Shown here in pieces: positions 22,580 to 26,838 of a stretch of 64,000 bases of DNA; the stretch's first letter is position 1, and every line of letters begins with the position of its first letter. Source of the stretch: Sedimenticola sp. GTDB lineage: Bacteria > Pseudomonadota > Gammaproteobacteria > Chromatiales > Chromatiaceae. A model generated the notes under the pieces. It did no database searches, had not been told where the DNA came from, and saw only the letters and a list, made by a program, of their open reading frames with translations. The stretch lies in contig PKUO01000088.1 of the NCBI GenBank assembly GCA_002869585.1, forward strand, positions 1 to 64,000. The letters run 5' to 3'. Position numbers and translations under genes: made by a program.

Positions 22580-22678
22580 TCACTATCTGGGAATCATAAT
22601 GGGGGTATAAGATACCGCAGAGGAAGGCGCTGCAGCAATTCTGTATGCTAGGGACTATTCTGGAGGAGGATAAAAAAG

Positions 22679-23602
22679 ATGCGAAAAATTATGCCAATCG
22701 CCCTGTACCTGATCCTGTCACTCGGCAGTATCAGCGCTACTGCCGGCCTTGAATTGCAGAAGGTCACGGATCAGGTCTATGCCATAGTCGGCGAGCTGTC
22801 CCAGCGCTCGCCGGAGAATCTCGGCAACAACGCCACCTTTGGTCTGATCGTGACCAATGCGGGCCTGGTGCTGGTCGATCCGGGTGGCAGTGAACAGGGT
22901 GCCGCTGCAATCCACGCCCTGATCAAGGGGGTCAGTGATCAGCCGGTCAAATGGGTGATCAATACCGGTGGTCAGGATCACCGTTGGCTGGGTAATCACT
23001 ACTGGGCAGAGCGCGGGGCCAGCATCATCGCCTCCAGTGCCGCGGTTGCGGACCAGAAGAACCGCTCCGGTGGGCAACTCGGTACCCTGCAGCAGCTGGT
23101 GGGCGAGGCGGGCATGGCTGGCACCTCCCCCCGGTATGCCGATCAGCTCTTCGAGAATGAGCTGGCCCTCGAGCTGGGTGGCGTACAGCTGCTGATACGC
23201 CATCTGGGCGCGGCGCATACCCCGGGGGACAGCTTTGTCTATCTGCCGCAACAGAATGTGCTCTTCTCCGGTGATATCATCTATCTGGAGCGCATGCTGG
23301 GGGTTGGTTCCCAGTCAAACAGCAAAAGCTGGCTGGCAGTGCTCGAAGCGATTGCCGAGCTGAATCCCGAGTGGGTGATTCCGGGGCATGGTCACGCCGC
23401 CGGCTTCGACAAGGCCCAGCGCGATACCATCGACTATCTGCGGACCCTGCGCCAGCGGGTTGCCGAGTTTCTCGATGAGGGCGGTGCCCTGGAAGAGATA
23501 GGGCAGGTGGATCAGTCTGAATTCGATTATCTTGAGGTCTCCGACCAACTGGCCGGCAGGAATGCCCACCAGGTGTTTCAGGAGATGGAGTTTGAGTTTT
23601 AA
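22679..23602 (+). CDS. Secreted metallo-beta-lactamase-fold protein with altered metal site
   Basis: This 307-residue protein has a signal peptide (ALYLILSLGSISATAG) and a metallo-beta-lactamase fold (NATFGLIVTNAGLVLVDPGGS; later FSGDIIYLERMLGVG and VIPGHGHAAGF). The usual HxHxDH motif is replaced by TGGQDH at about 96-101, one residue shorter and lacking the first two histidines. The later ligands in AAHTPGD, SGD and PGHGH remain. It therefore may bind one metal or act without hydrolysis. Related proteins accompany Sox and quinoprotein systems. GGAGGAGG precedes the ATG. Thioredoxin-like and MlaC-like genes follow within a few bases. Confidence 0.8.
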   Translation: MRKIMPIALYLILSLGSISATAGLELQKVTDQVYAIVGELSQRSPENLGNNATFGLIVTNAGLVLVDPGGSEQGAAAIHALIKGVSDQPVKWVINTGGQDHRWLGNHYWAERGASIIASSAAVADQKNRSGGQLGTLQQLVGEAGMAGTSPRYADQLFENELALELGGVQLLIRHLGAAHTPGDSFVYLPQQNVLFSGDIIYLERMLGVGSQSNSKSWLAVLEAIAELNPEWVIPGHGHAAGFDKAQRDTIDYLRTLRQRVAEFLDEGGALEEIGQVDQSEFDYLEVSDQLAGRNAHQVFQEMEFEF

Positions 23603-23605
23603 GTC

Positions 23606-23983
23606 ATGAGTGCAAGCAGTAAGAGCAGTACCAAGTCACCCTATATTTTTGATGTTGACGAGGCCGGTTTTGAGCAACAGGTGCTGGTAGCCTCGGAGTC
23701 GGTAATTATGCTGGTGGATTTCTGGGCGGACTGGTGCTCCCCCTGCCTGTCCCTGGCCCCGGCGCTGGAAAAAGTGATCAATGAATATGACGGTGCCGTC
23801 AGACTGGCCAAGGTCGAGGCGGATGACAACATGAAACTGGCCGGGCATTACCGGTTGCGGGGCTTCCCGACAGTAATTATGTTTGATCGGCGCGAGGAGA
23901 AGGGGCGCTTCGGCGGTTCACGCGCCGTTCACTGGATTCGTGACTGGATCGATGAGCATGCCGGGGACAGTCTGAGGGAGTAA
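23606..23983 (+). CDS. Thioredoxin-like protein with CSPC active site
   Basis: This 125-residue thioredoxin fold (FEQQVLVASESVIMLVDFWADWCSPC, cis-proline in LRGFPTVIMF) has CSPC in place of the usual CGPC, which should shift its redox potential. There is no signal peptide, so it is cytoplasmic, unlike the exported protein encoded three bases upstream. The family of short co-chaperone-like thioredoxins is a possible relative. Its stop overlaps the next start (TAATG). Confidence 0.8.
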   Translation: MSASSKSSTKSPYIFDVDEAGFEQQVLVASESVIMLVDFWADWCSPCLSLAPALEKVINEYDGAVRLAKVEADDNMKLAGHYRLRGFPTVIMFDRREEKGRFGGSRAVHWIRDWIDEHAGDSLRE

Positions 23984-24714
23984 TGCAGGTGACTCGCGCG
24001 TTGTCCTGGATGTGGACCGTCATGGAAATATGGACAAAACAGGGATGCCATTCACCATTCATTAAGAGGCCCGGGTTCCCCGGTGCCTTTTTATCTTGTC
24101 TCATCCTGGTGTTGTGGTTTTGTGGGTCAGCCATAGCCGGGACACTGAGTGAACCGCAACGGGTTATTCAGTCACTGTCAGATCAGATGCAGCAGGCGCT
24201 GCGCGATCGGCACTCTGAGTTGCAGCGGGAGCCGGAAAGTATCTTTCGCCTGGTAGAGCAGATTCTTGTTCCCCGTGTCGATTTCTCCCGTCTCTCCAAC
24301 CTGGCCCTGGGAAAGCATTGGCGGGAAGCGACAGATGAGCAGCGTCAGGCATTCGCCCAGGCGTTCCAGTCAATGCTGGTGCGCACCTATGCCACGGCCT
24401 TCCATGAATTCAAGATGTGGGAGATGCGTTTCCTGCCGTTAAGGAGCGCGGTTGAAGATCAACAGGATATCGAGGTTCGCACCCAGGTAGTGCGGCCGGG
24501 GGCGCAGCCTGTGGATGTGATTTACCGCATGCATAACACCGGGCTGGGCTGGATGGCCTATGATGTCAGCATCGAAGGCATCAGCCTTGCCACCAATTAC
24601 CGCAGCAGTTTCTCGAAAATGATCCGCCAGCACGGCATGGATGGCCTGATCCGGAGAATTTCCGAACTCAATCAACAGCGCCTGAAGCCAAACCAGGAGC
24701 CTGAAAAAAGTTAG
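23983..24714 (+). CDS. MlaC-family phospholipid-binding periplasmic protein
   Basis: This 243-residue protein has an N-terminal hydrophobic export signal (GAFLSCLILVLWFCGSAIAG) and an MlaC (Ttg2D) domain: SIFRLVEQILVPRVDFSRLSN at its start, ALGKHWREATDEQRQAF in the middle, and GLGWMAYDVSIEGISLATNYRSSF near the end (quoted in part). MlaC shuttles phospholipids between membranes in the Mla system, but no mlaABDEF genes are in this window. Here it is the last gene of a trio with the metallo-beta-lactamase-fold and thioredoxin-like genes, by one-base overlap. The long N-terminus before the signal peptide is unusual; an in-frame ATG at 24022 is an alternative start. Confidence 0.78.
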   Translation: MQVTRALSWMWTVMEIWTKQGCHSPFIKRPGFPGAFLSCLILVLWFCGSAIAGTLSEPQRVIQSLSDQMQQALRDRHSELQREPESIFRLVEQILVPRVDFSRLSNLALGKHWREATDEQRQAFAQAFQSMLVRTYATAFHEFKMWEMRFLPLRSAVEDQQDIEVRTQVVRPGAQPVDVIYRMHNTGLGWMAYDVSIEGISLATNYRSSFSKMIRQHGMDGLIRRISELNQQRLKPNQEPEKS

Positions 24715-24814
24715 AATTATCAGTTAGATTTAATATTCCAAGTAGATTTTGCAGGGTTGCTTTTTGCGACCTGGGTCAAAAAAATCACTCATACAGGAAA
24801 TTTCTCTAAAGTAA

Positions 24815-24842
24815 TTGTCTTTCAGGTCGTTAAGGAGATAAC
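24815..24842 (+). promoter_or_regulatory. Putative promoter of the candidate small RNA
   Basis: TTGTCT (24815-24820) and GATAAC (24837-24842) are 16 bases apart, each matching four of six consensus positions. A start near 24849 would place the first hairpin at the 5' end of the RNA. Confidence 0.3.
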
Positions 24843-24848
24843 AGCGTT

Positions 24849-25027
24849 TGGCAGTCGAGGGAGTGAAATCCCTTTTTAGCAGCTGTTGCGGGTTTGAACC
24901 CCCCGCAAGACAGTTCGGTTGGGTTGGCGTAATAGTTCTTATTACGAGAAACAATCGAAATGTCACCTCCTCCGGCGCTTACACAGCGCATTCAGGCCCA
25001 TTCTCTCCCCAGGTGGGCCTTTTTTTT
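24849..25027 (+). ncRNA. Candidate structured small RNA with anti-Shine-Dalgarno tract
   Basis: The gap between the MlaC-like gene and menD holds a run of perfect hairpins on the plus strand: AGGGA/TCCCT (24858-24873), TTGCGGG/CCCGCAA (24886-24908), CGTAATA/TATTACG (24928-24946), GCGCT/AGCGC (24975-24989) and a terminator (24994-25027). Between the third and fourth is an unpaired CACCTCCTCC (24964-24973), complementary to strong ribosome-binding sites. The T8 tail and A-rich linker fit an Hfq-dependent RNA of about 180 nt. I do not recognise a known family. It could instead be a long 3' untranslated region of the upstream operon. Confidence 0.45.
24994..25027 (+). terminator. Strong intrinsic terminator on the plus strand
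   Basis: AGGCCCA (24994-25000) pairs with TGGGCCT (25014-25020) across a 13-base loop, and the hairpin ends in eight T (25020-25027). It works only for plus-strand transcription, because the other side has no T-run. It can end the candidate small RNA or the operon of the MlaC-like gene. Confidence 0.88.
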
Positions 25028-25073
25028 ATTCTGTGATTAATGATCAGGCTTTCACCGCCCCTGCACTGTTTTT

Positions 25074-25128
25074 AACAGGATAGGATCGGCTTTGCCAACT
25101 CAAGATTCGGTTCTTAATTTATCCTGTT
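25074..25128. repeat. Nine-base inverted repeat downstream of menD
   Basis: AACAGGATA (25074-25082) and TATCCTGTT (25120-25128) are perfectly complementary across a 37-base spacer. On the minus strand, where menD ends at 25141, the distal arm is followed by AAAAAC, not T, so it is not an intrinsic terminator. It may be an mRNA 3' hairpin. Confidence 0.4.
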
Positions 25129-25140
25129 TAGGGTTCTCCC

Positions 25141-26838
25141 TCACTCTACGTTTAAGCGTGTCCAGAGTCGTTTATGTTGAGCGAGACTTGTTGACCGGGT
25201 CAGTTGCAGGTGGAGCAGGGAGACGCCATGTGAATTGGCCGCCTCTGAGATGTGATTGGCCAGTTGCCCTGGAGTGGTTGGCAGATAATCGACCCCGAAT
25301 CCTTGGACAATGGCCGGTATATCAACTTCATTTGGCGTGCTAAACAGCGCATCATGCTCCGGCAGTACCGCCTGGGGCAGGTGGTCGAATATGCCGCCGC
25401 CGCCATTGTCCAGAACCAGTAGTGTGGCGTTTAATCCCTTTGCCGCAGCCAGCGAGCCGATGTCGTGGATCAGGGTCAGGTCACCGAGCAGTCCGACCAC
25501 CGGCTGCCTGCAGGCGCTGGCCATTCCCAGCAGGGTGGCGATATTGCCATCAATGCCTGATGCCCCACGGTTGCAGGTGATCCGCAACGGCCTTTCTCTG
25601 CCACGGTGAAACCAGTCGAGCTGGCGGATCGGCAGCGAGTTGCCACTCAATAACAGGGTGTTTTCCGGGAGTGTCAGGGTCAGTGTGTCGATCAGCTGTT
25701 TCTCTTCAGGCGCCTCTTCATCGATGATCTCCCTTACGCGCTTTTGCTGGTTTTTCCAGCGTTGCAGATAATCCTCATCAGCCGGTGAAACCCTTGAGCC
25801 CAGACCCTGGGCAACCCCGGCCGGATCGGCCTGTAGCAGGTCCGTCGTCTGGTGCAGGGGATCTGCCCAGCGACCATGGGCATCCACCAGGATATGCCTG
25901 ATGCCGTCCAGCCCCTCAAGGAATTGGTTAAGGGTCTTGGAGACTGGCATGGCCCCGAAGCGTAACACCCATTGTGGTCTGACCTCTCCTGCAAAGGAGG
26001 GATTGCGCAACGCCAGATCGTACAGGGCGATGACCTGTGATCTGTCGTGCGAGCCATCACGCAGATTGGAGAGGGGGTCGGCGAGAATCGGGGCGTTGAG
26101 TCTGTTGGCCAGGACGGCGATTTCGTGGGCTGGCAAGGCTGTGCCGGTCTCTGGCCCGCAGACGATAATGCCGGGGCGAGAGCTGATCGCCTGGGCAACT
26201 CTATCCAGGTGTTCCGGGTTGGGATCGAGTACCGGCCGGGAGAGATGTGCCGGCTGCAGATTGTCTGGTAGCGGAAAATCCACCGGGGTCAGGGGTTCGC
26301 GAAAGGGGATGTTCAGGTGCACCGGACCGGGTAGTGGCCAGTGCGCCGATCCGGCCGCCTGGACTGCGAAGCGGCAGGCGGCGGCATACAGCCCTTGTTC
26401 CGGCAGGGGAAGCTCCATGCTGAATCGGCAACTGTTGCCAAACAGGTCGGTCTGCCGGGTGGTCTGGTTGGCGCCGCACTGGCGCAGTTCAGGAGGCCGA
26501 TCAGCCGAGAGCAGAATCAGGGGGATGCGCGCCAGATCCGCTTCGGTCACTGCCGGCAGCCATTCGCTGACCGCTGTTCCCGAGGTGGCAATCAGGGCGG
26601 TCGGTCTGCCGCTGGCCTTCGCCGCTCCCAGGGCAAAAAAGGCCGCTGTGCGTTCGTCGAGTATGACGCGGGTCTGTAGTTCGGGATGGCGAAAGGCGGC
26701 CAGCGCCAGAGGGGTCGAGCGCGAGCCAGGCGAGATGATCACCTGCAGGACACCACCGGCCCGCAAGCCTTCACAGATGGCCCAGGCCCAGGCGTAGTTC
26801 AGATCGGCATTATCTTTCATCGGTTGAGCATGCCGCAT
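25141..26838 (-). CDS. menD: 2-succinyl-5-enolpyruvyl-6-hydroxy-3-cyclohexene-1-carboxylate synthase (MenD)
   Basis: This 565-residue thiamine-diphosphate enzyme adds 2-oxoglutarate-derived succinic semialdehyde to isochorismate in menaquinone synthesis. It has the MenD start NYAWAWAICEGLRAGGV, the isochorismate/ThDP segment ISPGSRSTPLALA, the ThDP-activating glutamate in LDERTAAFFALG and a C-terminal ThDP-binding GDLTLIHDIGSL. The length is standard. An in-frame ATG at 26820 (MKDNADLNY) may be the true start; neither has a strong ribosome site. It lies 21 bases downstream of menF. Confidence 0.95.
   Translation of the reverse strand: MRHAQPMKDNADLNYAWAWAICEGLRAGGVLQVIISPGSRSTPLALAAFRHPELQTRVILDERTAAFFALGAAKASGRPTALIATSGTAVSEWLPAVTEADLARIPLILLSADRPPELRQCGANQTTRQTDLFGNSCRFSMELPLPEQGLYAAACRFAVQAAGSAHWPLPGPVHLNIPFREPLTPVDFPLPDNLQPAHLSRPVLDPNPEHLDRVAQAISSRPGIIVCGPETGTALPAHEIAVLANRLNAPILADPLSNLRDGSHDRSQVIALYDLALRNPSFAGEVRPQWVLRFGAMPVSKTLNQFLEGLDGIRHILVDAHGRWADPLHQTTDLLQADPAGVAQGLGSRVSPADEDYLQRWKNQQKRVREIIDEEAPEEKQLIDTLTLTLPENTLLLSGNSLPIRQLDWFHRGRERPLRITCNRGASGIDGNIATLLGMASACRQPVVGLLGDLTLIHDIGSLAAAKGLNATLLVLDNGGGGIFDHLPQAVLPEHDALFSTPNEVDIPAIVQGFGVDYLPTTPGQLANHISEAANSHGVSLLHLQLTRSTSLAQHKRLWTRLNVE

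Follow-up and report, generated by a model that had tools for sequence, protein, structure and literature searches.

Several small RNAs are known in which an unpaired CU-rich tract complementary to ribosome-binding sites is followed by a hairpin and a Rho-independent terminator, within a short conserved 3' part. The available parts of the reports describe this plan for the RNAs of Rfam family RF02278 (ncS03/05/27/62 and bdhR1 of B. cenocepacia) and for S17 of B. pertussis (PMC11722255, PMC5688073). S17 exists as a long form of ~190 nt and a processed form of 67 nt (PMC11722255, PMC5688073). According to the available part of one of these reports, it coprecipitates with Hfq, and the conserved single-stranded tract of its 67-nt 3' form represses the mRNA of a sigma54-dependent regulator, pairing with the ribosome-binding site (RBS) being predicted (PMC11722255). 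The small RNA (sRNA) gene considered here lies in a stretch of 64,000 nucleotides (the window), and its predicted structure shows the same plan of an unpaired CU-rich tract, then a hairpin and a terminator. At the gathering threshold no Rfam family matched in the window, in agreement with the first-pass annotation, which had recognised none; RF02278 came closest with 26.0 bits (cut-off 50). Besides this low score, the window RNA differs from RF02278 by a GCGC hairpin and by a promoter of sigma28 type instead of sigma70 type. S17 is the direct precedent for the window sRNA, and we infer that the window family works like RF02278 and S17.

Small RNAs tied to the flagellar sigma factor are described in E. 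coli and in Campylobacter, the latter belonging to another phylum. As far as the descriptions in the available text go, UhpU, MotR, FliX and FlgO of E. coli resemble the window sRNA in being controlled by the flagellar sigma factor and in adding an sRNA layer to the flagellar regulon, but they are derived from UTRs, whereas the window sRNA comes from an intergenic gene, has a promoter to itself and contains an anti-Shine-Dalgarno core (PMC10578931). The same text reports conservation of the E. coli sigma28 sRNAs among some Enterobacteriaceae and good conservation of the motR promoter across proteobacteria (PMC10578931). CjNC1/CjNC4 of Campylobacter, taken here to be CJnc10/CJnc170 (= FlmR), are also similar by description, being sigma28-dependent and short with predicted pairing over the RBS, although CJnc170, unlike the window sRNA, measures 47 nt (PMC4626219, PMC11187230, both available in part). 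CjNC1 and CjNC4 are predicted to cover the RBS of sigma54-dependent flagellar mRNAs; the available part of the report gives partial repression of some flagellar genes in an E. coli reporter, and deletion or overexpression without phenotype (PMC4626219). Furthermore, a putative anti-Shine-Dalgarno motif is marked in the RpoN-dependent CJnc230 (FlmE), again in a source available in part (PMC11187230).

A third comparison is with RF02837, the anti-hemB RNA, which Rfam describes as Burkholderia RNA 7. It shares with the window sRNA a CUCCCU complementary to Shine-Dalgarno sequences and, in some genomes, the nearby hemB. Read by eye, its CUCCCU lies in the loop of the first hairpin, whereas the window tract lies in a single-stranded linker. 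The RF02837 model scores 19.3 bits in the window against a cut-off of 49.5, gives no hit in the own genome at E 0.001, and matches 11 of 18 scanned loci of the family weakly, with up to 28.5 bits. Orthology to Burkholderia anti-hemB, suggested by the hemB synteny and these weak scores, was rejected: among the listed places, those of RF02837 and of our core model R2 (below) lie apart in all 12 class genomes that could be compared, and structure and promoters are different. Within the class, RF02837 was found at E <=0.001 in 167 of 369 genomes, 20 above cut-off, and HemB was in reach at one of 27 inspected RF02837 loci. As a separate observation, 19 of 27 RF02837-like loci (e.g. L235, L240, L249) have a GGAACTT-N14-17-GTCTTA-like site, which we take to be of sigmaE type, compared with 18 of 540 shuffles, the count of 19 being optimistic because the word was picked after viewing these loci.

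The window corresponds to G000:C101:1-64000 of the own genome (3.93 Mb). As the first-pass annotation had it, the gene occupies the gap that follows an MlaC-domain gene (23983-24714) and ends at a menD-like gene running towards it on the minus strand (25141-26838). All its parts are on the plus strand. Five hairpins are indeed predicted there, but they are not all perfect as had been claimed. Two leader hairpins (24857-24874 and 24886-24908) are absent from other genera. They are followed by a long leader hairpin (24909-24964), nested and interrupted, whose outer stem is kept in the same-genus genome G001 with compensating changes, four leader pairs being altered on both sides with pairing retained (n=2 sequences). 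Next come a hairpin GCGCU-loop-AGCGC (24975-24989), which is conserved, and an intrinsic terminator (24994-25027). The strong terminator with eight T of the first-pass annotation is confirmed: the stem at ~24994-25020 runs into T8 at 25020-25027, which gives the Rho-independent terminator with long U tail expected of Hfq-type sRNAs. Together with the Hfq association of S17, this U8 tail makes an Hfq-type character plausible by analogy. The fold energy of 24847-25032 is -63.0 kcal/mol against -51.3 +/- 4.4 kcal/mol for shuffles (z -2.7), and none of 200 shuffles equals it. The tract CACCTCCTCC is found exactly at 24964-24973, where it had been reported, and within it lies the anti-Shine-Dalgarno seed CCTCCTCC (CCUCCUCC) at 24966-24973. 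Positions 24965-24974 are unpaired in the minimum-energy fold, and in the predicted transcript the first 7 nt of the seed have a mean unpaired probability of 0.83.

A blastn search of 55 genomes with 24780-25040 as query matched seven, the own genome among them, and in the six others the aligned parts were confined to query positions 181-257 (window 24960-25036). Judged by sequence comparison, what is conserved across genera is a 3' core of ~70 nt, comprising the anti-Shine-Dalgarno tract, the GCGC hairpin and the terminator, and not the five hairpins; conservation of hairpins and seed in relatives therefore holds for the 3' core and the seed, while the upstream hairpins are not common to other genera. 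A covariance model built from the seven blastn-stage sequences (R1) picked up 80 places, spread over 76 of the 210 family genomes and 20 of 61 genera. Three of these places (G011:C267, G122:C175 and G125:C56) are a different, sibling-like RNA with CTCCTCTCTCT and were left out of the matrix test and the synteny count below; since G125 holds the sibling place alone, a hand count leaves 75 genomes and 19 genera with the core itself. From 53 of R1's matches a second model, R2, was made, which matched 82 of the same 210 genomes. The conserved core of the window (24955-25028) scores 64.2 bits with R1 and 70.8 bits with R2, scores that include itself as the window sequence is among those building both models. 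The core is borne by Sedimenticola, Candidatus Thiodiazotropha and tubeworm endosymbionts, and was seen for instance in Sedimenticola selenatireducens DSM 17993 (G119:C9, NZ_KE386615.1), Candidatus Thiodiazotropha endolucinida (G008:C12, NZ_MARB01000012.1) and the endosymbiont of Escarpia spicata (G111:C18, QFXE01000008.1).

In the alignment of 53 sequences, 97.2% of pair cells are standard, eight of 12 pairs show two-sided change, and the terminator stem does so in seven of seven modelled pairs. The covariation score is 0.439 against 0.235 +/- 0.012 for shuffled and at most 0.163 for slid alignments, figures that are flattered because the alignment was fitted to the structure. When only the seven hand-aligned sequences are taken, covariation is no better than in shuffles; seven of 12 pairs are invariant there. 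Seed and terminator stem are conserved to about the same degree. Across the class, R2 matched 28 of 369 genomes, two of those being family members, and the other 26 may mix window-type RNAs with RF02278-like ones. Core-pattern matches in scattered unrelated genomes (Clostridia, Paenibacillus and others, among the matches listed) are taken as chance.

The promoter had been placed at 24815-24842, and a promoter does overlap this region, at 24807-24833, but it is of sigma28 type and differs from the one described. A sigma70-type scan of 24300-25500 found none, and the homologues carry sigma70-like sites upstream no more often than shuffles do (13 of 74, compared with 23%); a sigma70 promoter for the window sRNA is not supported. 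Upstream of the first seven loci a site like TAAA-N15-GNCGNTA can be seen by eye, looser in L007. The E. coli sigma28 consensus is TAAAGTTT-N11-GCCGATAA; of 77 stretches taken upstream, each 200 nt long at most and the three sibling-like places included, 61 match it in at least 12 of 16 positions, compared with 39 of 1540 shuffles. An independent matrix was learned solely from the flagellin upstream regions of 40 sRNA-bearing genomes, seeded with this consensus; 34 of the 40 were used. Its consensus is TAAAGTTT-N11-GCCGTTAC, and 30 of the 34 sites lie 147-155 nt ahead of the start of the flagellin match. The own flagellin promoter, TAAAGAAT-N11-GTCGTTAC, has the same elements and spacing as that of the sRNA, with its -35 element TAAAGTAA at 24807-24814 and its -10 element GTCGTTAA at 24826-24833. 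This window site scores 15.9 bits for -35 and -10 together, and its spacer of 11 is the right spacing for a sigma28-dependent sRNA.

With the same matrix, 61 of 74 homologues reach 10 bits or more somewhere in the 200 nt that precede the core (three family loci were too short for scoring), compared with 25 of 3700 shuffles, none of 74 reverse complements and none of 71 downstream stretches. Other anti-Shine-Dalgarno loci gave 0/27 (RF02837-like) and 0/22 (RF02278-like). At least one genome with a site is present in 18 of 19 genera (hand count). In loci above 10 bits the site lies 42-156 nt from the core, and the predicted RNAs measure 84-199 nt. Among class loci outside the family, nine of 18 reach 10 bits, against six of 900 shuffles and two of 18 reverse complements; G296, G334, G419 and G445, where R2 and RF02278 coincide, lay outside these 18. 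Thirteen homologues stay below 10 bits. Five of them (G223, G224, G226, G227, G228) are all those scored in genus g81, though flagellin is present there; the others are G213 (4.9 bits), G117 and G118 (5.8 each), G166, G210 and G211 (9.0-9.2), G221 (-1.5) and the second G209 locus (0.9).

The sRNA is found mainly in flagellated genomes. FliA is encoded in the own genome (269.9 bits, cut-off 189.6), and flagellin (PF00669) was found in 142 of the 210 family genomes. The sRNA and flagellin occur together in 72 genomes, the sRNA only in four, flagellin only in 70 and neither in 64, with G125, which has only the sibling-like RNA, counted as sRNA-positive. Flagellin is thus found in 72 of 76 genomes with the sRNA against 70 of 134 others (Fisher p 2e-11, uncorrected for relatedness, with many close relatives in the set). 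Given the 70 flagellated genomes without a match, the RNA is dispensable for flagella. As for the four without flagellin, G025 and G165 have FliA above cut-off, hence flagellin was probably missed in incomplete assemblies, and the FliA of G102 is split into two pieces that overlap, a TGA standing in one of them. In the fourth, G221 (L085), no FliA above cut-off and no flagellin match were found, and the core is kept (R2 61.1 bits) with the sigma28 site absent. It is a single natural case, yet the one predicted by the FliA model.

The seed is predicted to be exposed beyond the window. Across the 51 predicted RNAs whose promoter site reaches 10 bits and whose tract is readable, its median unpaired probability is 0.75; 34 of the 51 reach 0.7, and in the other 17 the mean is below 0.7 (e.g. 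0.44 in G113). Conservation, covariation and the predicted accessibility lend good support to an sRNA with an exposed anti-Shine-Dalgarno seed, as proposed by the first-pass annotation. Overall its observation is partly confirmed and its interpretation partly supported; the restriction of conservation between genera to the 3' core, the sigma28-type promoter, the link with flagellated genomes and the likeness to RF02278 and S17 had escaped it. The conserved structured core, predicted seed exposure, sigma28-type promoter and co-occurrence with flagellin are the computed support for our main reading, in which the window gene encodes a FliA-dependent, trans-acting sRNA of ~187 nt that would block purine-rich ribosome-binding sites. 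We give it a probability of about two in three; transcription, the start site, a possible ~70-nt processed form, help from Hfq and translational repression are steps that we infer.

The neighbourhood could speak for another origin. In most well-flanked loci the core is near Trx, MlaC or hemB: where 1000 nt or more of upstream flank are available (68 family loci), Trx is present in 56, MlaC in 21, hemB (other strand) in 42 and any of them in 61. HemB is also within reach in six of 18 class loci outside the family. The core could then be cut from the 3' UTR of a thioredoxin-MlaC operon mRNA, the end being the operon terminator with the seed and the sigma28-like site being incidental, much as B. 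pertussis makes S17S, a 67-nt form, by processing according to the available part of its report (PMC11722255). We hold this to be unlikely, given that the sigma28-type site which precedes the core, by no more than 200 nt, in 61 of 74 homologues is absent from controls, that the upstream neighbour changes (MlaC, Trx or neither) while core and site stay, and that the site is missing in G221, with no FliA above cut-off. That the window RNA is itself a member of RF02278, with S17 and bdhR1 among the betaproteobacterial toxic sRNAs, and so a general sRNA with a housekeeping promoter, appears quite improbable. RF02278 is the best Rfam match of the stretch (E 0.0046 for 601 bases), the plan is the same, and among the 22 class genomes where R2 and RF02278 both have matches a place coincides in four, those named above. 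However, the listed places differ in the remaining 18, the score of 26.0 bits is below the gathering score of 50, and two other places of the own genome match better (33.7 and 33.2 bits). Moreover, sigma70-type sites (at least 9/12) are found in 16 of 22 RF02278-like loci against 27% of shuffles, unlike the 13 of 74 against 23% of the window family, and the sigma28 site is in none of the 22.

The sequence CACCUCC is part of the 16S 3' tail, and the tract contains it. The RNA could hence serve as a general decoy, aimed at the 30S subunit or at leaders, broadly lowering translation in motile cells instead of selecting targets, and RF02278 RNAs do inhibit E. coli growth from a cloning vector according to the available parts of two reports (PMC4603805, PMC7011215). 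However, the tract exceeds the 16S motif in length and adjoins a conserved hairpin; this would rather fit a choice of targets, and a general decoy seems to us about as improbable as membership of RF02278. The position between convergent genes would finally suit a mere shared terminator or a cis element of menD. This is very improbable: no run of T accompanies the stem when the minus strand is read, menD was found beside the core in only two of 80 loci (G000 and G001, some downstream flanks being short), and the seed is about as well kept as the stem.

For the FliA-dependent sRNA, FliA-RNA polymerase would start near 24841, ~7 nt past the -10 element, and stop at the T8 terminator, giving a predicted primary transcript of ~187 nt (24841-25027), down to ~84 nt in relatives with the promoter close to the core. 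Its 3' core would show CCUCCUCC single-stranded beside the GCGC hairpin, possibly after processing to a ~70-nt form, perhaps aided by Hfq. The seed could then pair with purine-rich Shine-Dalgarno sequences (GGAGGAGG) and block ribosome entry on chosen mRNAs, and such blocking, coinciding with filament synthesis, would provide sigma28 with a repressing arm. The seed exposure and the precedents of S17 and Campylobacter are the reasons for holding that a FliA-made RNA may repress selected GGAGG-rich leaders.

Run as a pattern search, the seed scan of the genome gave two plausible starts and no conserved target. The pattern GGAGGAGG-N3-9-ATG has 22 places in the own genome (three overlapping pairs) compared with 16 for the reversed pattern, and only two, at an MBL-fold and a sufD-like gene, begin frames of more than 100 aa with few open codons ahead. 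Three further frames of that length (L216, L217/L218, L228) are open for at least 53 codons upstream, so that these starts are probably internal. Four relatives have 43, 24, 47 and 19 places against 28, 12, 36 and 5 for the reversed pattern, and by eye no target gene recurs among the 30 of 133 places read as loci. The cleanest candidate target of the own genome, on sequence grounds and as a candidate only, is the metallo-beta-lactamase-fold gene 2.2 kb upstream (22679-23602, plus strand), whose RBS GGAGGAGG at 22662-22669 is an exact complement of the seed. Duplex ranking covered the window plus a further 60.7 kb of the own genome, together giving 114 called frames, of which those with a usable start were ranked, starts being chosen crudely. 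Rank three went to a flhF-like frame with -21.3 kcal/mol, rank seven to the MBL-fold gene with -19.5 and rank eleven to a flhB-like frame with -17.3, where flhF and flhB are presumed names given from the N-termini; this ranking is only a lead.

A literature search, made mostly outside subscription journals, found no paper on the window sRNA. Against the known kinds, the predicted novelty is an anti-Shine-Dalgarno sRNA with its own intergenic sigma28-type promoter, in sulfur oxidisers and symbionts. In sulfur-oxidising marine bacteria and symbionts, motility may thus carry its own translational brake. If true, a conserved repressing RNA joins the flagellar sigma28 regulon beyond enterics and Campylobacter, and one promoter with one 8-nt seed offers a concrete handle on gene repression by the flagellar sigma factor. 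The family includes clam and tubeworm symbionts, for which quitting the motile state should matter. Three anti-Shine-Dalgarno families seem wired to three sigma factors (RF02278-like to sigma70, RF02837-like to sigmaE, the window family to sigma28), which suggests that such RNAs are perhaps distributed one per sigma factor. A bolder and rather doubtful extension is that Gammaproteobacteria, in the wide GTDB sense, keep one ribosome-binding-site mimic per sigma regulon, each repressing translation of competing programmes, that of sigma28 acting as a checkpoint that separates basal body from filament, or motility from a symbiotic or sessile state.

Some further observations were made along with this work. 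The own genome has a second flagellin N-terminal match, at G000:C62:14973-15383, which contains one TAG stop. The sibling-like RNA with the CTCCTCTCTCT seed (L090, G011:C267:198-271; L086, G122:C175:251-324; L092, G125:C56:20375-20449) lies directly behind a seeming short-chain dehydrogenase gene, which we take from its sequence to be phaB-like; upstream of it no sigma28 site was found, the 9/16 matches in each of the three loci being at shuffle level. In genus g68 the core is ~30-40 nt longer in L082 (G081) and L087 (G082), apparently within the loop of the first hairpin. Lastly, the two own-genome places that match RF02278 better than the window, though below its cut-off, are further anti-Shine-Dalgarno sRNA candidates, L295 at G000:C8:22190-22247 (plus strand) and L296 at G000:C53:142135-142201 (minus strand), with CTCCTCCATCCTCCTTTGGTGG and, by eye, TTGAC and TATTAG-like words upstream.
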